From assembly GCA_024687125.1 (NCBI GenBank), contig JAILFA010000025.1:1-64000 (forward strand): a stretch of DNA of 64,000 nucleotides. The letters are read 5' to 3'. The first letter of the stretch is position 1; each line of letters starts with the position of its first letter. This document shows, piece by piece, positions 3,294 to 11,973 of the stretch. The translations under genes were made by a program, and so were the position numbers. This stretch comes from Lachnospiraceae bacterium (GTDB lineage: Bacteria > Bacillota > Clostridia > Lachnospirales > Lachnospiraceae). A model generated the notes under the pieces. That model searched no databases and was not told where the DNA came from. It was given only the letters and a program-made list of their open reading frames with translations.

Positions 3294-4046
3294 ATGAGTA
3301 TCATACCGATCAATAAAGAAAACATCGCCGATTACTCGGATCTTGTGGACGGGGATGTTGCCGAGAACATAGGGCGAATGTATTATCGAGGCGTTGCCGT
3401 CCATGATCCGGATGACAACAGTCCGCTTTCGCTTCTCATCTGGGAACTGAAATCCGTGGAGGCGGCCGGCGATACTGAGTCGGAACTCAAATGGCTCTAT
3501 GCCGCGGATCCTTCGTTCATATTGCCGCTTTTTGACGAATACAGCTCGGAGGCTCTGTCTGAGGATGTAAAAAGAACCGCGCTGGAGATGGCCGTGTCGG
3601 ATACGGAAAAATCCGATGCGATGATCGAGTGCGGTTTTACCTTTTCACCTGTGGAGAGCAGGTATCTCAATGTCTCTGTCACGGATTTCACAGAGCTTTC
3701 CTTCATGAAGAAAAAGGCCCCGTCCTATATCACGAGCATTGGCGATCTGAATGACAGGGCAAAGACCATGATCATGTCCTATCTGTCTGTAGGAAAAAAC
3801 CAGATCACGCTGGCGAATTATCAGACCACAAAGGAAGGGTATGACGAGCTGGTGATCTCGGATCTCAACGGCGTGCGCACGCCTAAGGTCAAATCGCCTA
3901 TGGCCGACTGGACGGTCAACGACCGGCGGGGAAACGAAAGACTGATCCAGATAAGCAGGAAAGACCGGGAGAAGCGCTTCTCCGAGATCGCCCGATACAT
4001 GGCGAACCGTCGTCAGCGGCAGGGCGGTCAGGATAAGAAGAACTGA
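3294..4046 (+). CDS. GNAT-like protein, paralogue of the 43143 gene product
   Basis: 250 residues. The ATG at 3294 is preferred over an upstream GTG because GAAGGG (3283-3288) lies five bases before it. The C-terminal half resembles the N-terminal part of the 850-residue protein at 43143: both have x-G-F-T-F-S followed by a beta stretch, then S-(I/L)-G-D-L-(N/T)-D and a helix ending in a Tyr-Met. No clear acetyl-CoA pyrophosphate loop is seen, so it may be a degenerate acetyltransferase fold used for binding. Its stop overlaps the start of the HelD-type helicase gene by one base (TGATG), pointing to co-translation. Function unknown. Confidence 0.6.
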   Translation: MSIIPINKENIADYSDLVDGDVAENIGRMYYRGVAVHDPDDNSPLSLLIWELKSVEAAGDTESELKWLYAADPSFILPLFDEYSSEALSEDVKRTALEMAVSDTEKSDAMIECGFTFSPVESRYLNVSVTDFTELSFMKKKAPSYITSIGDLNDRAKTMIMSYLSVGKNQITLANYQTTKEGYDELVISDLNGVRTPKVKSPMADWTVNDRRGNERLIQISRKDREKRFSEIARYMANRRQRQGGQDKKN

Positions 4047-6187
4047 TGGACCGTAAAGAATTTGAAGCGGAACAGGCGCACCTGAGCCTGGTATATGACA
4101 AGCTCCTTGCGATGAAAAAGGAGCTGGAGGAACAGATCAGGGCTCTGGACAGGAAAGCGCTGGAGGATAAAAGTGATATCCGTGACAATATACGTTTTGA
4201 CTACGCGGATGATGAGACCACCATGGAAACCCTGGCAGAGATCGAGGTCTGGAACCGCTATATCGACACCTATAATGTAGAAAGCGATTCTCTGCGGAGA
4301 AATATGAATGCCGTGAGGAAACTCCTTGAGGCACCGTATTTTGCCGAGATCCGTCTGCGTTTTGCTCCCTCGGAGCCCCCGGAGAATTATTACATCGGCC
4401 GTGCGGGTATCACGGAACAGGGGGCGGGTCCGCTGATCATCGATTGGAGATCGCCGATCGCCGAGGTGTATTACAATCAGGAGACCGGTCCCACCCGGTA
4501 TACGGTGGAAGACCGGGTAATCCCGGTGGAGCTGCTGCTGCGCAGGCAGTTTGATCTGCAGAAGAACAGGCTCATTTCCTTTTTTGATACCGGGATCGCC
4601 ATTGAGGATCCCATGCTGCTGCGATCGCTCTCACAGACACATTCCGACAAGATGCGGGCGATCACGGCAACGATCCAGAAGGAGCAGAATACGGTGATCC
4701 GTTATACCAATGTACCGGTGCTTCTGGTCGACGGGATCGCCGGCAGCGGGAAGACCTCGGTATTACTGCAGCGGATCGCCTATCTGTTTTACCGTAAGCG
4801 CAAGGATCTGCGGCCGGATCAGGTATGCCTCATGACCTTGAACCCGGTGTTCCGGGACTATATCGACGAGGTACTCCCGGATCTGGGTGAGACGAATCCG
4901 CTTACCATCACTTGGACGGAATTTTTATCCATGCTTCATGTACCGGATGCGCAGGAGGCAGAGATGGAAGCGATCCTGCCGGACCGCGATTCCAGTGCTC
5001 AAAGCCGCACGGGCTCCCTCGAGCTTCGCTCGGGGGCAAGTGAAGAGCCCGGGCCTGACCGCCTGGAAGAGATCCGGGAAGGGCTGCCGCTGTATAAACC
5101 GGAAGCGGCGGATTTCTTCCCCATTACCCAGAAAAACAGGGTCGTCATGACTGCCGGAGAGGTCCTTGCAATCGTGAATGAATACCGCAGGTTTCCCTTC
5201 GGCGAAAGACGGATCCAGATCACTGTCGACGAACTGGAACACCGGGCAAAAAACCGGCTGCGCAGTCTGGCAGAGGATGCAGAGACGGACGCGGATGCCG
5301 CGGAACCCTCGGATCGTGCGGAGGAAAGACGGCTGGAAAACGATTTTGGCGGAGCGTTACGGAATATCCGGAAATATGCCTGGATCAATGTGAGGCATAT
5401 TGCGCAGCGAATCCTCGGCACCGACCATATCACAAAAGCCGAGTGGCTGTTTACGATGCTGGAACTGACCGGATCGCGCGACCGGAACATGCGCTATGTC
5501 ATGATCGACGAGGTACAGGATTATACAAAAGCGCAGCTGGAGATCCTTGGCAAGTATTATCCCAACGCCCGTTTTATGCTTTTGGGGGATGAGTTCCAGT
5601 CGATACGGGAAGGTACCGTTTCTTTTTCCGAGATCGAAGAGATGACCCGTGAGACGGGGAAACAGTTTGTATCTCTGCCGCTTATGACCAGCTACCGGAG
5701 TTCGCCGGAGATCACGGAGCTGTTCGCTTCTCTGCTGCCGCAGGAGAGAAAACTGGCGGTATTGACTGTCAGACGCCCCGGAGAGGCGGTGGCGATCAAG
5801 ATCTGCGTATCGAAAAAGGAATATGCCGGGGAACTGAAAAAGCTGATCGCGCAGTATAAAAAGGAGGACGGACTGACCGCAGTCATCTGCCGGAATGAAG
5901 AGACTCTGGAAGAACTCATTTCTGTCCTGGGAAAAGAAGCCCCCGCAGTGGTGAGTCAGCACGATTCCCTCCCGAAGAACGGCATCTTTCTGATCAGCCT
6001 GGCTTTTGCCAAGGGTCTGGAATTTGATCAGGTGATCCTGCCGGATGTCGATCCGGAGAACTACCCGGATGACCGGATCTCGAGACATTGCCTGTACACT
6101 GCGATCTCACGCGCTACCGGCCGTCTGGTGATCCTGGCTGAGAACGAGGCATCGCCGCTCCTGTATTTTTTTAAAAATTTTTCCTGA
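4046..6187 (+). CDS. helD: HelD-type UvrD-like helicase (RNA polymerase recycling factor family)
   Basis: 713-residue superfamily 1 ATPase. An N-terminal helical region (about 1-90) is followed by Walker A G-I-A-G-S-G-K-T near residue 230, motif II D-E-V-Q-D near 488, G-D-E-F-Q-S-I (III), S-Y-R-S-S-P-E (IV), F-A-K-G-L-E-F-D-Q-V (V) and Y-T-A-I-S-R-A-T (VI). The N-terminal coiled region and D-W-R-S-P-I-A segment before the ATPase core are typical of HelD, which releases stalled RNA polymerase in Firmicutes. A short Ser/Gly/Pro-rich insertion near residues 315-335 is encoded by a palindromic repeat (4999-5040) also found in an unrelated gene at 11065. Translation is coupled to the upstream gene. 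Confidence 0.85.
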   Translation: MDRKEFEAEQAHLSLVYDKLLAMKKELEEQIRALDRKALEDKSDIRDNIRFDYADDETTMETLAEIEVWNRYIDTYNVESDSLRRNMNAVRKLLEAPYFAEIRLRFAPSEPPENYYIGRAGITEQGAGPLIIDWRSPIAEVYYNQETGPTRYTVEDRVIPVELLLRRQFDLQKNRLISFFDTGIAIEDPMLLRSLSQTHSDKMRAITATIQKEQNTVIRYTNVPVLLVDGIAGSGKTSVLLQRIAYLFYRKRKDLRPDQVCLMTLNPVFRDYIDEVLPDLGETNPLTITWTEFLSMLHVPDAQEAEMEAILPDRDSSAQSRTGSLELRSGASEEPGPDRLEEIREGLPLYKPEAADFFPITQKNRVVMTAGEVLAIVNEYRRFPFGERRIQITVDELEHRAKNRLRSLAEDAETDADAAEPSDRAEERRLENDFGGALRNIRKYAWINVRHIAQRILGTDHITKAEWLFTMLELTGSRDRNMRYVMIDEVQDYTKAQLEILGKYYPNARFMLLGDEFQSIREGTVSFSEIEEMTRETGKQFVSLPLMTSYRSSPEITELFASLLPQERKLAVLTVRRPGEAVAIKICVSKKEYAGELKKLIAQYKKEDGLTAVICRNEETLEELISVLGKEAPAVVSQHDSLPKNGIFLISLAFAKGLEFDQVILPDVDPENYPDDRISRHCLYTAISRATGRLVILAENEASPLLYFFKNFS
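4999..5040 (+). repeat. In-frame palindromic element, copy 1
   Basis: Inside the helD-like gene, TCAAAGCCG is followed by ACGGGCTCCC and a hairpin: arm CCCTCGAGC (5016-5024), loop TTC, arm GCTCGGGGG (5028-5036), with one T-G wobble. It aligns base for base, apart from one inserted C, with 11065-11101. The encoded peptide T-G-S-L-E-L-R-S-G-A is in the same reading frame in both copies. Arm differences between the copies keep the pairing, which argues that the hairpin matters. Confidence 0.7.
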
Positions 6188-6261
6188 ATCTGACGAATTC
6201 TGTGGGTTGGTGGGTATAACACTATATAAATCAGACTCATCCGCGAACAGGAGGTGTGATC

Positions 6262-6475
6262 ATGAAAGAGCAGAAAGAATTGAAAGATAATGCCGCAAAG
6301 GCGGAAACGGTCCAGTCAGCCGGGGGGCGCAATGACTGATGAAGAGGCGGCGAACGTGAATGGCGGCGGATTATTCGATGGATTATTCGATGTCGTAGAT
6401 GCTTTAGGCGATGTCGGCGATGGCAGAAAGCGTATGATGGAAGTGGTCAATGATATCAGCAAGGTTTTAAAGTGA
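6262..6475 (+). CDS. Double-glycine leader peptide, frame broken at a G6 run
   Basis: A strong AGGAGG (6250-6255) precedes ATG 6262, which starts a lysine/glutamate-rich leader (M-K-E-Q-K-E-L-K-D). That frame stops at 6337-6339 after 25 codons. The neighbouring frame, reachable by losing one base in the G6 run at 6322-6327, continues with M-T-D-E-E-A-A-N-V-N-G-G-G, a classical double-glycine secretion leader, and a mature-like part of about 34 residues starting L-F-D-G-L-F-D-V-V. Removing one G gives one continuous 70-residue precursor. The second frame also has its own ATG at 6332 overlapping the first stop, so coupled re-initiation is possible. No processing transporter is in the window. 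Could be sequencing error, slippage or decay. Confidence 0.6.
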
Positions 6476-6517
6476 TATCACAAGTACGGGAGCCGCGATG
6501 AAAAAGGAACAGAACAG

Positions 6518-7582
6518 ATGGATCGTGGTCTGACCTATGTGGATTATTATCCGGAATACGCTTCTGTTGCCCGGATCGATATTGTTTTTGATCTGATCAC
6601 GATCCTGATCATTGCCATGCTGATGGTGCAGATCCTCCGCAGGAAACATAATACCAAAGAGGTATTCATGTTCCGGCGTATACTCATCTGTAACCTGATC
6701 ATGGCTGTCTGCGGCATCGCAGAGGATGCGCAGCTGCTGTACCGGACGCTGGACAGGAATACCCTGGCCGGTGTCTATGTAAGCGCGGCTTTTGTGGAGA
6801 TATTTACGCTCGTGCTTGTGGCGCAGTGGCTTCTTTTTGTGGAATTCACGCTGCATCAGAGCATGGATATCATTAAACGCAGATATCCGAGGGTTTCGAT
6901 CCCGTTTTTCGCGGCAGTTGCTTTGCAGATCATAAGTATCCTCCTGCTGCTGCCTTTCAATGGCACGCCGGAATACAGTGAAGTCGCGGACCTTCTTAAT
7001 ACCATATCCTATCTCGTCATGTTCTTCTATATCATGGCGTCCTATATTGTTCTCAGCAGGGAGAGAGGGCAGAACAAGATCCCTCAGTATATCAGAGTGA
7101 CGCCTACCGTCATCTGCATGGTCGCCGGAATCATCATTGACTGGTTCCTGACCGAATTTCGGACACAGGAGATTGGCTTTGCCATAGGCCTTTTGTTCGC
7201 GGATTATTTTATGTTCCGGCGCTTAAGCTTTATCGATCCGCAGACCGGATTCTTTATCAGAAAGTATCTGCCGGAGCTGGAAAAGGCCGCAAGTAAAAAG
7301 AAGATCGAGGGTGGGACCGTGTTCCACTTCCGTGCGCCAGAGGACAGCGGGAAAATGGCGGCGATCATCAGGGCATGGGAACCGTACAGCAGCAGGGTCG
7401 TGACTATGGGGGACGGAATGTTCCTCGTCATTGCCGAGGCATTAAAAGAAAGCCTGGCGGAGACCTTTATCTCACATGTCAGGAAAAATGCGCAGGAAGA
7501 AGGGCTGCAGGTGGAAGCCGGATATGAGATCTGGAAGGAAGGCCCAGTCCCTGCGGAGATCCGGCGCATCGCATCGGAGTGA
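6518..7582 (+). CDS. Multi-pass membrane protein with degenerate GGDEF domain
   Basis: 354 residues. Residues 20-230 contain about seven hydrophobic segments. After F-I-D-P-Q-T-G-F-F-I-R, which matches the opening of GGDEF domains (D-x-L-T-G-L-x-N-R), a cytoplasmic domain of about 115 residues follows. At the place of G-G-D-E-F it has M-G-D-G-M-F-L-V-I, so diguanylate cyclase activity is unlikely; it may bind nucleotide or a partner. AAGGAAC lies just before the ATG. It sits directly downstream of the double-glycine peptide gene, so it could be a sensor or immunity-type partner, but that is conjecture. Confidence 0.65.
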   Translation: MDRGLTYVDYYPEYASVARIDIVFDLITILIIAMLMVQILRRKHNTKEVFMFRRILICNLIMAVCGIAEDAQLLYRTLDRNTLAGVYVSAAFVEIFTLVLVAQWLLFVEFTLHQSMDIIKRRYPRVSIPFFAAVALQIISILLLLPFNGTPEYSEVADLLNTISYLVMFFYIMASYIVLSRERGQNKIPQYIRVTPTVICMVAGIIIDWFLTEFRTQEIGFAIGLLFADYFMFRRLSFIDPQTGFFIRKYLPELEKAASKKKIEGGTVFHFRAPEDSGKMAAIIRAWEPYSSRVVTMGDGMFLVIAEALKESLAETFISHVRKNAQEEGLQVEAGYEIWKEGPVPAEIRRIASE

Positions 7583-7633
7583 ATTATTAAGCATCCTTAA
7601 GAATCTGCCAATATATATAGATAAAGGACAGAT

Positions 7634-8587
7634 GTGTCCACGATGATCAAGATCGACCTCATCACCGGATTTCTCGGCTCCGGCAAGACCACCTTCATAA
7701 GACACTACGCGAAGTATCTGCTCGATACCGGCGTACGGCTGTGCCTTCTTGAAAACGACTTTGGCGCCATCAATGTCGACCGTGTCCTACTGCAGGATCT
7801 TCTGGGCGACAACTGCGGTATGGAGATGATTGTCGGCGGTGACGGCCTGGAAGCCCACCAGCGCAGGATGCGCACCAAGCTGATCGCGATGGCCATGAGC
7901 GGGTATGAACGGGTGGTCGTGGAGCCTTCCGGGATCTTTGACGTGGATGAACTCTTTGATCTCCTGTACGAAGACCCGATTGACCGATGGTATGAGATGG
8001 GAAATGTGCTGACGGTCCTGGATACGGGGCTCTCCGACACCATGACGGACGAGGTGGACTACCTTCTGGCATCGCAGTGCGCCTGTGCCGGCCGTCTGAT
8101 CCTGAGCCGCACACAGTTGTTTGACGTGGAGCGACAGGGTGCTGTGATCGCCCATGTAAACCGGGCGATGGAAAAGATCGGCAGTAAACGCCGCTTCCTG
8201 CTCGAACAGGATGTAGAAACTGCTGACTGGGAAAGCTTTTCTCCCGCGGATATGGAACGGCTTTCGCAGAGCGGTTTCGTGCGCGACAGTTATGTGAAGC
8301 AGTCCGTCGTAGAGGACGGGCATTTTGCTTCGCTTTTCTGCTTTTATCTGGAACTCCCGGAGGAAGCTCTTCGCGAAAAGATAGATCACATCTTCCATGA
8401 TCCGGACTGCAGCGGTGTTTTCCGCATCAAAGGCTATATGCACACGGCGCAGGGGCGCTGGATCCGGATCAATGCCACCAGGGAGGCAACAGAGATTTCA
8501 TCCTGCGATCCTGCAGAGAATGTGCTGATCGTCATCGGAGAGAATATGGACAAAACAGTGCTGGGACAATACCTTCCGGTACGCTGA
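7634..8587 (+). CDS. COG0523 (CobW/YjiA-type) G3E GTPase
   Basis: 317-residue P-loop GTPase of the family that delivers metals to target proteins. Walker A is G-F-L-G-S-G-K-T-T near residue 12, L-L-E-N-D-F-G-A-I-N-V-D is the family switch motif, and V-V-V-E-P-S-G-I-F-D is the Walker B region. The C-x-C-C metal motif expected shortly after the switch is absent; the region reads N-C-G-M-E-M-I-V-G-G-D, with one Cys. The C-terminal CobW domain is recognisable (I-K-G-Y-M-H...G-R-W-I-R-I-N). GTG at 7634 has AAAGGAC five bases upstream; ATG 7643 is the alternative. Metal and client are unknown. Confidence 0.85.
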   Translation: MSTMIKIDLITGFLGSGKTTFIRHYAKYLLDTGVRLCLLENDFGAINVDRVLLQDLLGDNCGMEMIVGGDGLEAHQRRMRTKLIAMAMSGYERVVVEPSGIFDVDELFDLLYEDPIDRWYEMGNVLTVLDTGLSDTMTDEVDYLLASQCACAGRLILSRTQLFDVERQGAVIAHVNRAMEKIGSKRRFLLEQDVETADWESFSPADMERLSQSGFVRDSYVKQSVVEDGHFASLFCFYLELPEEALREKIDHIFHDPDCSGVFRIKGYMHTAQGRWIRINATREATEISSCDPAENVLIVIGENMDKTVLGQYLPVR

Positions 8588-8594
8588 CAGGAGT

Positions 8595-8828
8595 GTGGAA
8601 GGTGTGATCGATCAGGTGCCGATGTTCGTTGTCGCGGATCTGTGCGCCGGAGGACAGCTTGAGGAAGCAAGGCTCTATACGCATGCCACTTTTGTCCCCG
8701 ATCTTACGCCGTACCGAAGGCCGCTGTTTCATTCGGCGCATCTGGAAATGGGAGATCCCGGTCTGCTCACAGGTGCCGTGAAGGAATTCCCCGCAGGCGT
8801 AGGATTTAAGAAGCAAGAGGAACTGTAA
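8595..8828 (+). CDS. Small hypothetical protein after the GTPase
   Basis: 77 residues, starting GTG at 8595 or, less likely, GTG at 8604, only a few bases after the GTPase stop; CAGGAG lies close upstream. It has no signal peptide or membrane segment and no motif I recognise. Composition (balanced hydrophobic and charged residues, one Cys, three His) is compatible with a real small protein encoded together with the metal GTPase, perhaps a continuation of the same operon. It might instead be a decayed tail of a longer gene. Confidence 0.4.
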   Translation: MEGVIDQVPMFVVADLCAGGQLEEARLYTHATFVPDLTPYRRPLFHSAHLEMGDPGLLTGAVKEFPAGVGFKKQEEL

Positions 8829-8834
8829 TGGCTG

Positions 8835-8857
8835 CCGGGGGGCCTTGTCTCCCCCGG
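8835..8857 (+). terminator. GC hairpin between GTPase operon and LytTR gene
   Basis: CCGGGGG (8835-8841), 9-base loop, CCCCCGG (8851-8857). No T-run follows, so it is at best a weak or Rho-assisted terminator or an mRNA-stabilising hairpin. Its position supports starting the LytTR gene at 8957 rather than reading the open frame from 8828 through it. Confidence 0.35.
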
Positions 8858-8956
8858 AATCACACCGTCGATTTCTGCAGGATACCGTATGTTTCTGCAA
8901 TGGGCATAAATGTTCAACGTGCGTTGACCGATATCGATCACGAAAGGATATTTATC

Positions 8957-9313
8957 ATGGCAGAAAAAGAACAGCACAGGGTTTCCTACGATTTTGTGGA
9001 AGGACCGGCGGCATTTGATCTTGCCGCACTGGTATATGTGGAGAGCAGACTTCACCGATGCCTCTTCCATTTCAGAAACGGAACTACTCTGAGCACTTAT
9101 CGAAAACTCGATGATGTAGAAAAGCTGCTTGCGGATGAGCGGATGCTGCGGATCCATAAGAGTTATCTGATCAATGTGACATACTGTATCAAGGTCAGCA
9201 ATTATTCACTGTGGCTGCAAGATGGACAGATCTTTTCAGTGCCGCGCGCAAGATATCATTACGTCAAGGAATGCTATATAAAATACTGTCTGGAAAAAGG
9301 GAGGGAAGCATGA
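8957..9313 (+). CDS. Stand-alone LytTR-domain transcriptional regulator
   Basis: 118 residues if started at the ATG 8957, which has AAAGGA (8943-8948) upstream. The frame is open back to 8828, but the extra 43 codons cross a GC hairpin and look non-coding. The protein is essentially one LytTR DNA-binding domain: the segment L-V-Y-V-E-S-R-L-H-R opens it, and L-A-D-E-R-M-L-R-I-H-K-S-Y-L-I-N-V is the hallmark helix-strand with conserved R-x-H-K-S-Y/F-x-V/I-N. There is no receiver domain. Its stop overlaps the next start, placing it in one operon with the BlaI and BlaR1 homologues. Confidence 0.8.
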   Translation: MAEKEQHRVSYDFVEGPAAFDLAALVYVESRLHRCLFHFRNGTTLSTYRKLDDVEKLLADERMLRIHKSYLINVTYCIKVSNYSLWLQDGQIFSVPRARYHYVKECYIKYCLEKGREA

Positions 9314-9732
9314 TGCATCAGGAACAGCGTATCCCAAGTGAGAGCGAATGGCAGATCATGGAGATCATCTGGCAGGAGGGAGACGGAATCACCTCCGCGG
9401 AGATCCTGCAGAAGCTCGAAGGACATACCGATATGACGGAACGCACCATCCGCGTGCTCTTATCAAGGCTCTGCGGAAAAGGGCTTCTGACCTCGACACC
9501 GGATGACAGGGACAGCCGGGTGCTGCATTATTATGCTGCGTGCGACCGGGATTTCTGTCTGGCGGAAAAGAGCCGCAGTTTTATTCAGCACTATTTCGGG
9601 GGGAATCAGGCCAGCGCGATCGCATCCTTCATCGGTTCGGAAAAACTCAGTGAGGAAGAGATCCGTATGCTGGAGGAACTTCTGAACGAGAAAGCGGGAA
9701 ACAATGCTGCCGGGAAAGAGAGCAGAAAATGA
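9310..9732 (+). CDS. blaI: BlaI/MecI-family transcriptional repressor
   Basis: 140 residues. The winged-helix N-terminus reads S-E-S-E-W-Q-I-M-E-I-I-W and continues with T-E-R-T-I-R-V-L-L-S-R-L, the recognition-helix region of BlaI/MecI/CopY repressors. The C-terminal helices (S-E-E-E-I-R-M-L-E-E-L) form the dimerisation part that the partner protease normally inactivates. ATG 9310 overlaps the LytTR stop (ATGATG) and follows GGGAGGG; the adjacent ATG 9313 is also possible. The gene overlaps the blaR1-like gene by 4 bases, the usual blaI-blaR1 arrangement. Confidence 0.85.
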   Translation: MMHQEQRIPSESEWQIMEIIWQEGDGITSAEILQKLEGHTDMTERTIRVLLSRLCGKGLLTSTPDDRDSRVLHYYAACDRDFCLAEKSRSFIQHYFGGNQASAIASFIGSEKLSEEEIRMLEELLNEKAGNNAAGKESRK

Positions 9733-11003
9733 CAGGGGTTTTAGAAATGATCAGGAATACCCACGAATTCCTGCGGGCCGCCGGAGATGTACTGCTGACG
9801 CTTTCGGCATACTGGAGCATTATTCTGATCCGCTGTACGCTTGCGTCTGCTCTGCTCATCGTGGCTGTGAGAATGCTGCGGCGCTTCATCCCTGATCGGT
9901 ATACCTGGCTGCGCTCCTGGTGCTGGTCGCTTCTGATACTTGCTCCTTTTTTCGGCAGGCTCCGTTTCTGGTATGATTCACCGATCGTACTGGGGGTTAC
10001 CGGATTTCTTTATGATCTTCTGGGGCAGCATCTTTTTCTTCGTGTGCTCTGGCCCGGGATCAGTACCTGTCTGATCGTGCGGTATCTGCTCAGAGCACGG
10101 CATCTGCGGAAGGAGATCGATGCCCTGCCGCAGCAGGAATTTGCCGGCGTGACCGTTTCCGTAACACCGCTTAGTGTATCTCCTTTTTCCGCGGGACTCA
10201 TGAAACCCCGGATCGTCATCCCGAAGAAGCATCTGGAAGTCATGGATGATCGTGAACTGGAAAACATCATCATGCATGAGCGCACCCATATCCGGCTGGG
10301 ACATCTGTGGATCCTCGCGCTTTGGCAGCTTCTGTGCGCACTGCTGTTTCCGGATTTTCTGCTGTTCCTGTCGGGGAAATACCTCAGGGAGGACATGGAG
10401 GCACTCTGCGACCGTGTGACTATGAAGCATACGCAGATGTCAGCAGTCGCATACGGCAGTCTGATCCTCCGGTCACATCGATCCGCGGCGGACGATCACT
10501 CCCTTTCACCCGTGACGCTTTCCGGTGAAAAGACCTATGAAGAGGCCAGGAGAAGGATCCTTCGTATCTGCGCTTTTAAGCCCTATCGCGTCATAAACTG
10601 CATCCTCCTTGGAGTGTGCTGTATTTCCATCGTGGGCGGGACGCTTGCCTTGATCCGGCAGGCGTCCTATCCGAGATGGTCAGGTATCTCCAATATTTCG
10701 ATCGTCGATAAAGACAGTCATATACAGGGATTCTACGACGAAGATGCAATACAAAGCGCTGTTTCCTGGGATCACGAGAAGTTGGTGATCCACAGAAGCG
10801 CATTTGAACGACTGTGCGCCGCATATCCGGGAGATGTCGATACGGAGCATTTCTGGATATGCTTTGACGGGTTTTATAAACTGCCGGGGATCGGCGGAGG
10901 AGGACAGCTGGTCGAGGTGGATCTCTCCGGCGGCGAGGAGGATCTGATCATTCCCTATGAGTGGACGACAGACTTCTGGACGGAGTTTTTCAGGTACATC
11001 TGA
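9729..11003 (+). CDS. blaR1: BlaR1/MecR1-family M56 membrane metalloprotease sensor
   Basis: 424 residues, start in the ATGA overlap with blaI. Several membrane segments surround a cytoplasmic zinc-protease loop with H-E-R-T-H (His183, Glu184, His187) followed by an E-D-M-E-A-L-C-D region supplying the third ligand, as in peptidase family M56. A last membrane segment near residue 290 leads to an extracellular domain of about 120 residues. That domain is much shorter than the penicillin-binding sensor of BlaR1 and lacks S-x-x-K, so the signal is probably not a beta-lactam. Expected role: cleave BlaI on sensing. Targets may include the two genes downstream. Confidence 0.8.
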   Translation: MTGVLEMIRNTHEFLRAAGDVLLTLSAYWSIILIRCTLASALLIVAVRMLRRFIPDRYTWLRSWCWSLLILAPFFGRLRFWYDSPIVLGVTGFLYDLLGQHLFLRVLWPGISTCLIVRYLLRARHLRKEIDALPQQEFAGVTVSVTPLSVSPFSAGLMKPRIVIPKKHLEVMDDRELENIIMHERTHIRLGHLWILALWQLLCALLFPDFLLFLSGKYLREDMEALCDRVTMKHTQMSAVAYGSLILRSHRSAADDHSLSPVTLSGEKTYEEARRRILRICAFKPYRVINCILLGVCCISIVGGTLALIRQASYPRWSGISNISIVDKDSHIQGFYDEDAIQSAVSWDHEKLVIHRSAFERLCAAYPGDVDTEHFWICFDGFYKLPGIGGGGQLVEVDLSGGEEDLIIPYEWTTDFWTEFFRYI

Positions 11004-11013
11004 GGAGGCATCT

Positions 11014-11973
11014 ATGATCGGCATTGCACATAAGGCAGAAACCCTGTCGGGTTTCTTTGATGTCTCAAAGCCGACGGGCTCCCACGAACTGCGTTCGTGG
11101 GCAACAGTTGAAAGAAGTGTAGAGATCAGCGGAAGGCAGAAACGGACAGTCACCCGCTTTTACAGCGCACAGGGCGATGTCACCGCTTCCATGAGTGTTA
11201 CGCAGCCGTACAAAAAGAAATCCGGACTGGCGAAAAAGCCGCCGTACAATTACAAACAGCTTTCTTCCCAGCTGATGCGAGCACAGAACTCGAGTGCTGT
11301 TTCTCAGGTCCTGATAAAGATGCGGAATAAACGGGCACAGCTCATTTCAGCGAAACGCGACGGTTCCTATGATGAGACAGAACTCGCACTGGCCATCATT
11401 CATGCGGAAGCGATCGAACAGGTCGCGAAAAAGAGGAAGAAAAACCTCGAAATGGAGGAAAAAGCGGAGCTCATGCAGGAAAATGAGGAATACGAGGAGC
11501 AGCTGGAGGAGGCTGCGGATCCGCTTGGCCTGTTTGGCGGGGAAGATGAGAATTCGCGAAAGCTCTCCGAGGAGGAGATGGAGCAGATCCTTTCCGATCT
11601 GGAGGAGGAAATGGACGAGCTCATGAAGGAGATGGAAGAAAACGCAGAACTGGATGAGGCGCTTGACGAGATGACGGAGGTACTCTCCGGCGACATGTCT
11701 CCCGAGGACCTGGAAGAGATGAAGAAAAAGCATCGCGCGGCGGAACAGCGGGATATCATCAAGGCGGATATGAAATATCTGAAGGCACTTTTTGATAAGC
11801 TTTCGCGAGAAAGGGAACATGCAGCCTCCTCATCCGGAGGTTTGTCTTCGCCGACATCTTCATTCACGATGGCCACAGCAGACGCACCGTTATTGACCGC
11901 TTCATCTCCGACAGCGCCGGCGACCGTCGCAGTACCATCTCCGGAGGGACAGATGATAGACATCTCGGTTTGA
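11014..11973 (+). CDS. Charged coiled-coil protein of unknown function carrying a palindromic insertion
   Basis: 319 residues starting at ATG 11014, with TGAGGAGG directly upstream; the open frame extends back to 10957 inside blaR1 but that part is not needed. The first 40 residues contain the peptide from a palindromic repeat (T-G-S-H-E-L-R-S-W-A). Residues about 75-135 form a conserved-looking helical region (Y-N-Y-K-Q-L-S-S-Q-L ...). Residues 140-260 are strongly Glu/Met/Lys-rich coiled coil, and the last 40 are Ser/Thr/Ala/Pro-rich and probably disordered. No signal peptide. Ten bases after blaR1, so likely in the same transcript. Function unknown. Confidence 0.65.
   Translation: MIGIAHKAETLSGFFDVSKPTGSHELRSWATVERSVEISGRQKRTVTRFYSAQGDVTASMSVTQPYKKKSGLAKKPPYNYKQLSSQLMRAQNSSAVSQVLIKMRNKRAQLISAKRDGSYDETELALAIIHAEAIEQVAKKRKKNLEMEEKAELMQENEEYEEQLEEAADPLGLFGGEDENSRKLSEEEMEQILSDLEEEMDELMKEMEENAELDEALDEMTEVLSGDMSPEDLEEMKKKHRAAEQRDIIKADMKYLKALFDKLSREREHAASSSGGLSSPTSSFTMATADAPLLTASSPTAPATVAVPSPEGQMIDISV
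11037..11110 (+). repeat. In-frame palindromic element, copy 2, with satellite hairpins
   Basis: The part shared with copy 1 runs from TCAAAGCCG (11065) through ACGGGCTCCC to the perfect 9-bp hairpin CCCACGAAC (11081-11089), TGC, GTTCGTGGG (11093-11101). Immediately upstream are two more perfect hairpins, AGAAACCC-TGTC-GGGTTTCT (11037-11056) and CTTTGA-TGTC-TCAAAG (11055-11070), and CAAC-A-GTTG follows at 11102-11110. All of this is coding sequence near the start of the 11014 gene. Confidence 0.7.

Follow-up and report, generated by a model that had tools for sequence, protein, structure and literature searches.

Why do two unrelated genes in one stretch of Lachnospiraceae DNA share a short palindrome that seems to be read in the same frame? 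The window analyzed here is the whole stretch, 64,000 nucleotides from a Lachnospiraceae bacterium (contig JAILFA010000025.1, positions 1 to 64,000). An original prediction, made from its letters, had noticed that 4999-5040 in a HelD-like helicase gene and 11065-11112 in a coiled-coil gene share a hairpin and a peptide, and had likened them to the Rickettsia palindromic elements (RPEs). We put a probability of roughly 0.78 on the window feature belonging to a Lachnospiraceae family of short, non-autonomous mobile elements with a core of 70-73 nt. The same two-hairpin sequence was found at dozens of loci that have nothing else in common, empty sites are seen in relatives, and the stems vary yet stay paired. 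Since the same element lies at unrelated loci and empty sites exist, the element is mobile on an evolutionary scale.

The shared stretches and their hairpins were present as predicted (11081-11101 perfect; 5016-5036 with one G-T pair), but they proved to be the 3' halves of longer elements at 4966-5038 and 11034-11103, whose 5' half, made up of hairpin 1 and the loop hairpin, had been overlooked. Copies were sought with two covariance models, R1 built from three copies and R2 from 78, and the window was found to hold two copies. An ungapped search with TCAAAGCCGACGGGCTCCC, allowing up to 3 mismatches, gave one occurrence in the window (chance 0.03) and missed the HelD copy because that copy has one extra C. 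The copies, their parts, and their host genes are as follows.

4046..6187, + strand: host gene 1, open reading frame (ORF) of a HelD-like superfamily 1 helicase, 713 aa (ORF; Pfam UvrD families)
4966..5038, + strand: element copy 1, second subfamily, 73 nt, within the HelD-like gene (R1, E 3e-9; R2, 62.7 bits, this copy being one of the 78 sequences used to build R2); peptide E-A-I-L-P-D-R-D-S-S-A-Q-S-R-T-G-S-L-E-L-R-S-G-A
4970..4987, + strand: hairpin 1 of copy 1, GCGATCC/GGACCGC with one mispair (sequence and covarying helix 1)
5016..5036, + strand: 3' hairpin of copy 1, CCCTCGAGC-TTC-GCTCGGGGG with one G-T pair (helix 5 of the covariation alignment)
10957..11973, + strand: host gene 2, coiled-coil ORF, 338 aa as listed (ORF listing)
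11032..11106, + strand: net insertion compared to the empty site in L137 and L138, 75 nt = 25 codons, in frame (alignments)
11034..11103, + strand: element copy 2, main subfamily, 70 nt, close to the start of the coiled-coil gene (R1, E 1e-24, this copy being a training sequence of both R1 and R2); peptide A-E-T-L-S-G-F-F-D-V-S-K-P-T-G-S-H-E-L-R-S-W-A
11038..11055, + strand: hairpin 1 of copy 2, GAAACCC/GGGTTTC; covaries among copies
11062..11075, + strand: loop hairpin of copy 2, GTC-[TCAAAGCC]-GAC; the same loop holds extra hairpins in some relatives
11081..11101, + strand: 3' hairpin of copy 2, CCCACGAAC-TGC-GTTCGTGGG, perfect 9 bp

The core has three folded parts in this order: hairpin 1, with 7 bp and a loop of 4 nt; a short stem that has TCAAAGCC as its loop; and the 3' hairpin, with 9 bp and a loop of 3-4 nt. 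Two subfamilies were recognized, one of ~70 nt (type 11034-11103) and one of ~73 nt (type 4966-5038; also G000:C36 and C82). The main sense frame encodes E-G-I-L-T-D-S-F-D-(V/A)-S-K-P-(T/A)-G-S-P-D, and the peptide is hydrophilic and ~25 residues long; in the second subfamily the middle is in a shifted frame (A-Q-S-R) and both ends retain theirs. The same reading frame claimed for the window copies therefore held for the 3' half (T-G-S-x-E-L-R-S-x-A) but not for the middle (A-Q-S-R in HelD versus V-S-K-P), the HelD copy being one of the second subfamily. In the 78-copy alignment, the stems change on both sides and remain paired. Changes on both sides were seen in 12 of the 13 variable pairs of the two outer hairpins, paired cells amounted to 92.9% compared to 80.4% after shuffling, and the covariation score was 0.333, whereas shuffling gave 0.105 and slid versions did not exceed 0.098. 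In the 78 copies, the loop TCAAAGCC and the three outermost pairs of the 3' hairpin were constant, largely because the search pattern demanded them. An AGCC/GGCT pseudoknot would be compatible, yet both of its sides are invariant and it shows nothing.

Additional copies do exist beyond the window. The covariance-model search of the genome and its relatives that had been proposed found 6 copies in the window's genome (R1, E <1e-5) and more in relatives, R1 being positive in 6/99 genomes, the window's own included. Pattern searches of the window's genome found additional copies on C125 and C126, which keep the entire GGxAGGAACCC-N4-GGGTTCC-[TC]TTGATGTCTCAAAGCCGACGGGCTCCC-hairpin-GGGCA. Across 84,980 species, the exact pattern returned 73 stretches, 72 from Lachnospiraceae and one from a myxobacterium, with none from Rickettsiales. 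The 72 are in records titled Lachnospiraceae, Oribacterium or Parasporobacterium, mostly metagenome-assembled genomes (MAGs), many with rumen or gut in the title, plus AD3010, an apparent isolate judging by a title without MAG. The myxobacterial stretch (L078, Myxococcales) scored only 18.7 bits, compared to at least 44 for the retained matches, and was left out of the alignment and the catalogue. With R2, at least 266 copies were counted in 31 genomes (1-30 each), 30 of which had been picked for having a pattern match and in each of which no more than 150 candidates were scored. A chance control for R2 (65 loci, 256 kb) gave 3 matches at E <=1, the best at 23.9 bits. The distribution is patchy. 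An order-wide survey found the element in 3/246 genomes, 3/116 genera, and one family.

A catalogue was made from 193 matches, leaving out four below 37 bits and ~20 judged to be duplicates by bit score and G+C. Two neighboring tandem copies (L105, L094) were added by hand, and 161 distinct copies remained after the removal of exact duplicates. Counts from the catalogue are not fully independent because several copies are orthologous pairs; orthologous insertions common to several species were found in FabD (three genomes) and IleRS (two). Viral contigs, phages, and plasmids gave zero matches at the sensitivities used, and thus no hint that a phage or plasmid carries the element. None of 4227 Rfam covariance models reached its gathering score within the element. 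The sraL model overlaps the element in L259 at chance level (18.1 bits compared to the 39 needed, E 1.8), and a genuine match to the ribosomal protein L10 leader (RF00557) extends 11 nt into the reported element in L248.

Next, filled and empty sites were compared. In L138, the coiled-coil gene has an empty site at which ATGATCGGCATTGCACAT abuts GTAGAAAG, and the window carries 75 nt more; L137 has the L138 version with two substitutions. The true start of this gene is probably the ATG at 11014, because the two nearest homologues begin M-I-G-I-[AS]-[HR]-V-E-R-S. The AD3010 gene aligns with that of its relative L090 and is longer by 75 nt, so that these are two insertions with a clean empty site, each of 75 nt net. 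For HelD, the BLAST pieces of homologues were mostly interrupted across query residues 302-336. The alignment of HelD homologues proposed for finding the borders succeeded in part: 24-26 residues were missing in 8 of the 9 homologues displayed (from 29 loci), the remaining L108 having a shorter, different linker, but the empty site was not clean. L107 retains TCTGGGGCAAGT (S-G-A-S-E-E), possibly an insertion scar, and the linker of L117 is unrelated in sequence. With the exception of S-G-A-S-E-E in L107, the aligned homologues of both proteins lack the peptide, none of them keeping it with the hairpin gone, and the model search found no copy above 24 bits in the 58 homologue loci covered. Neither of the two conditions under which the original prediction would have been dismissed is therefore borne out, as more copies exist in the genome and its relatives. 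Weak model matches were seen near the HelD homologues of relatives at L113:2940-3008 (23.9 bits) and L114:541-607 (18.7 bits), in relatives where the three-copy model did not find the element; they may be decayed copies or chance.

Elsewhere, the element was found inside PurL, IleRS, ValRS, carbamoyl-phosphate synthase (CarB), TsaD, FabD, and ATP-synthase gamma, as well as in a tRNA (uracil-5) methyltransferase family member, a nickel-insertion protein, ABC transporters, radical SAM enzymes, glycosyltransferases, and CobD (antisense). From the 92 rows listed, 40 ORFs were scanned, and 32 of these had a Pfam family. Alignments with solved structures were interrupted across the element in all four cases tried (TsaD 209|235, FabD 151|178, ATP-synthase gamma 193|232, IleRS 703|738). 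At two genes identified by eye, one for homoserine dehydrogenase and one HisA-like, the element is immediately 5' of the start codon, outside the gene.

The 161 distinct copies comprise 77 within predicted ORFs, 24 overlapping one, and 60 that are intergenic. Within genes, the ratio of sense to antisense copies was 63:14, and 50:6 when at least 30 codons flank each side, compared to 32:28 relative to local genes for the intergenic copies (Fisher p 0.0004 for 63:14 and 3e-5 for 50:6, with orthologous copies uncorrected). With no orientation preference between genes and a sense bias within them, insertion itself looks unoriented, and the bias in genes would be the product of selection on the encoded peptide, that is, of what the gene product tolerates. 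Of the sense copies flanked by long open runs, 38/59 were in frame and open; the antisense copies with long open runs gave 3/18.

In-frame protein-coding palindromes have been regarded as a trait of Rickettsia and Wolbachia, the protein-coding palindromic repeats of Wolbachia being a further known case, and have been attributable to relaxed selection in small intracellular populations. The hosts here differ in being free-living anaerobic Firmicutes of the gut and rumen, which accept such insertions in aminoacyl-tRNA synthetases, TsaD, FabD, PurL, and ATP synthase. We know of no mobilizer of RPEs. RPEs are described as 105-146 bp long, bounded by terminal inverted repeats and forming long stem-loops (PMC2229807), in frame within conserved genes (PMC2229807, PMC10969869), and nearly half of the R. 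conorii copies are within ORFs (PMC10969869), compared to the 77/161 here. Like RPEs, the Lachnospiraceae element is a hairpin-forming repeat at many unrelated loci, is found in frame within unrelated conserved genes with a recurrent peptide, and also occurs between genes. Unlike RPEs, it has a 70-73-nt core, two separate hairpins, a conserved inner loop, and terminal inverted repeats only in G147, a draft genome from another genus that is 100% complete and holds 14 copies. The likening to a spreading hairpin tolerated inside proteins is thus supported by analogy of behavior, not as membership, the two having been compared by description. By description the element is a new family of a known kind, in-frame protein-coding palindromes, set apart from RPEs. 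That no such family had been described agrees with the literature searched, largely without subscription journals, in which none appeared for Lachnospiraceae or other Clostridia. Related species with empty and filled sites, plus the apparent isolate AD3010, make movement of the element testable, and likewise the effect of 25 extra residues on essential enzymes.

How could such an element spread? We propose that an enzyme acting in trans would copy it and insert it either way round. Covariation of the hairpins points to a folded strand, DNA or RNA, as what is recognized, and on such single strands the enzyme might read the ends as folded into hairpin 1, the TCAAAGCC loop hairpin, and the 3' hairpin. 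Net gains tend to be divisible by three, and one reading frame is open on the sense strand. Sense, in-phase insertions into loops would then extend the protein without destroying it and pass selection; because these are tolerated, copies would persist in essential genes with no apparent host function.

Several results weigh against this reading. The mobilizing enzyme was not found, and Y1 transposases and reverse transcriptases did not track the element: Y1_Tnp was present in 11/16 element-bearing genomes compared to 9/10 genomes negative by the three-copy model, RVT_1 in 9/16 element-bearing compared to 8/10 element-free genomes, and G123 and G140 showed neither. These comparisons are confounded because the element-free set comes from the window's genus and the bearing set is mostly not known to be. 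There was no clear target-site duplication, with no perfect repeat of at least 5 nt among 72 single copies at assumed borders. The single copies had a weak excess of flank repeats at 7 nt (36.5% compared to 30.2%, z 3.6, ten lengths tried), and in all 114 copies, tandem ones included, the excess fell at 4 nt (z 4.0) and at 7 nt (z 3.9). Furthermore, 16/59 sense copies were frame-shifted and 5/59 stopped; several of these 21 resemble gene ends or junctions by run length, but some may be broken genes. The ORFs used for in-gene calls are open by definition, and some begin upstream of true starts. The choice of ORF also varied between scripts, so that CobD in L035 is antisense in some listings yet outside the 14, and L202 is the converse. 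The sense bias is incompletely explained, because the antisense open frames are hydrophilic too (by eye).

One rival explanation, which we consider doubtful, is that the element is a miniature inverted-repeat transposable element (MITE) derived from a conventional DDE insertion sequence; no parent was found, no DDE transposase search having been made. The size class fits. Also, in 7 of the 12 rows shown from the 14 copies of G147, the core sits within longer palindromes of ~220 nt with ~25-bp terminal inverted arms (by eye). The classical trait of terminal inverted repeats was absent otherwise: the 40-nt flanks of 158 copies outside G147 were no more complementary than shuffled pairs, which argues against an outer stem there, and the single copies have no perfect target-site duplication of at least 5 nt at the assumed borders, as described above. 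The ~220-nt repeats L316-L325 of G147 are mostly outside long ORFs, and their terminal inverted arms vary yet appear complementary by eye. The ERIC/NEMIS (Correia) MITEs are mobile repeats with open frames that were found fused to genes; their features are TA ends, terminal inverted repeats, and target duplications, and MITEs in bacteria occur mainly between genes (PMC2229807). The Lachnospiraceae element shares with them the small size, the open frames, and the joining to genes, but it has terminal repeats only in G147 and no clear duplication.

Another possible explanation, which we consider unlikely, is that the element is moved by a Y1 (RAYT/TnpA-REP) transposase acting on single-stranded hairpins, like the repetitive extragenic palindromic (REP) sequences and the ends of IS200/IS605. 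(RAYT stands for REP-associated tyrosine transposase.) REPs are short many-copy hairpins of 20-40 bp, some inside ORFs, with a GTAG or CGTC tag (PMC3733652). Like REPs and bacterial interspersed mosaic elements (BIMEs), the present element is a short multi-copy hairpin sequence found partly in ORFs; its hairpin 1 has a GAAG or, less often, GTAG foot. It differs in that the tag is mostly GAAG (74/161 copies; GTAG 14/161). GTAG was within the first 14 nt of 20/161 copies and of 9/14 G147 copies, compared to 1.8% of background 14-mers; at the 3' foot GTAG was found in 6/161 and CGTC in 1/161. The GTAG foot of some copies would suit a RAYT-like route, the paired hairpins and conserved loop fit single-strand recognition, and several element-bearing genomes encode Y1 proteins of ~260 aa. 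GTAG repeats are frequently close to RAYT genes (PMC3733652), but none of the 16 Y1 neighborhoods fetched holds a copy, including 12 from element-bearing genomes, which have 19 Y1 matches. Y1 was not found in 5/16 element-bearing draft genomes, and the left flank is A-rich without a fixed target tetranucleotide. The missing correlation between Y1 and the element is weak evidence here, because PMC3733652 reports no obvious correlation between Y1 gene presence and repeat families.

A resident reverse transcriptase could also copy a structured transcript that is then inserted, as with short interspersed elements (SINEs), but this seems improbable to us. In its favor, the RNA-like fold covaries, and additional inner hairpins are described below. 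Tandem units with short, flank-like spacers were found in L105, L094, and L088. Short spacers also separate full copies from partial ones, which are upstream and 5'-truncated (the 3' hairpin or its arm) in L037, L060, L062, L079, L083, L089, L091, and L097. However, 3'-truncated copies (hairpin 1 alone) stand downstream in L040, L076, and L095, the intergenic copies have no orientation bias, and RVT_1 was not found in 7/16 element-bearing draft genomes, some with 14-18 copies. It is very improbable that the peptide is never made owing to RNA-level removal or translational bypass (a mini-intron or hop). Stable mRNA hairpins and the 21/59 sense cases that are not in frame and open would suit it. 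Removal or bypass would not need 75-nt net insertions or one preferred open frame, and there are 38 in-frame open cases and constant sense peptide ends across the subfamilies. Coincidence, or a peptide motif common to both proteins, could be entertained with just two copies in the window but is refuted by the at least 266 copies in 31 genomes and by the missing peptide in the aligned homologues.

The TCAAAGCC loop of the mobile element was itself found to differ in content. A 42-nt stem-loop piece is within it at five loci in four genomes (L259:569-688, L283:2501-2620, L231:2270-2389, L293, and L295, the last having lost the 3' hairpin). Near-matches to this piece in the 31 genomes were in the element loop in 5/7 cases, and the other two are 3-mismatch matches in unrelated sequence. 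L095 lacks the piece and its orthologue L259 has it, with flanks 98% identical on the left and 73% on the right. The loop of L248:2501-2625 carries a different, palindromic piece of 46 nt that its orthologue L054 lacks, with flanks 99-100% identical; the L248 copy adjoins the ribosomal protein L10 leader RNA (Rfam RF00557). Tentatively, the element could be a platform with the TCAAAGCC loop as its site of insertion or exchange, in which case the family would be a new type of mobile element, modular and RNA-like, able to exchange its inner hairpins and to spread within coding sequence, and embedded in the larger palindromes of another genus; we regard this idea as speculative.

Some minor observations concern the surroundings of the copies. 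A tRNA gene was found ~290 nt downstream of the C126 copy with Rfam (L002:1818-1891), and the right flank of L071 and L084 resembles a tRNA 3' end on the opposite strand (by eye). Immediately 5' of the coiled-coil gene, at 9211-11003 of the window, two ORFs resemble a BlaI/MecI-type repressor and a BlaR1/M56-type peptidase (by eye).

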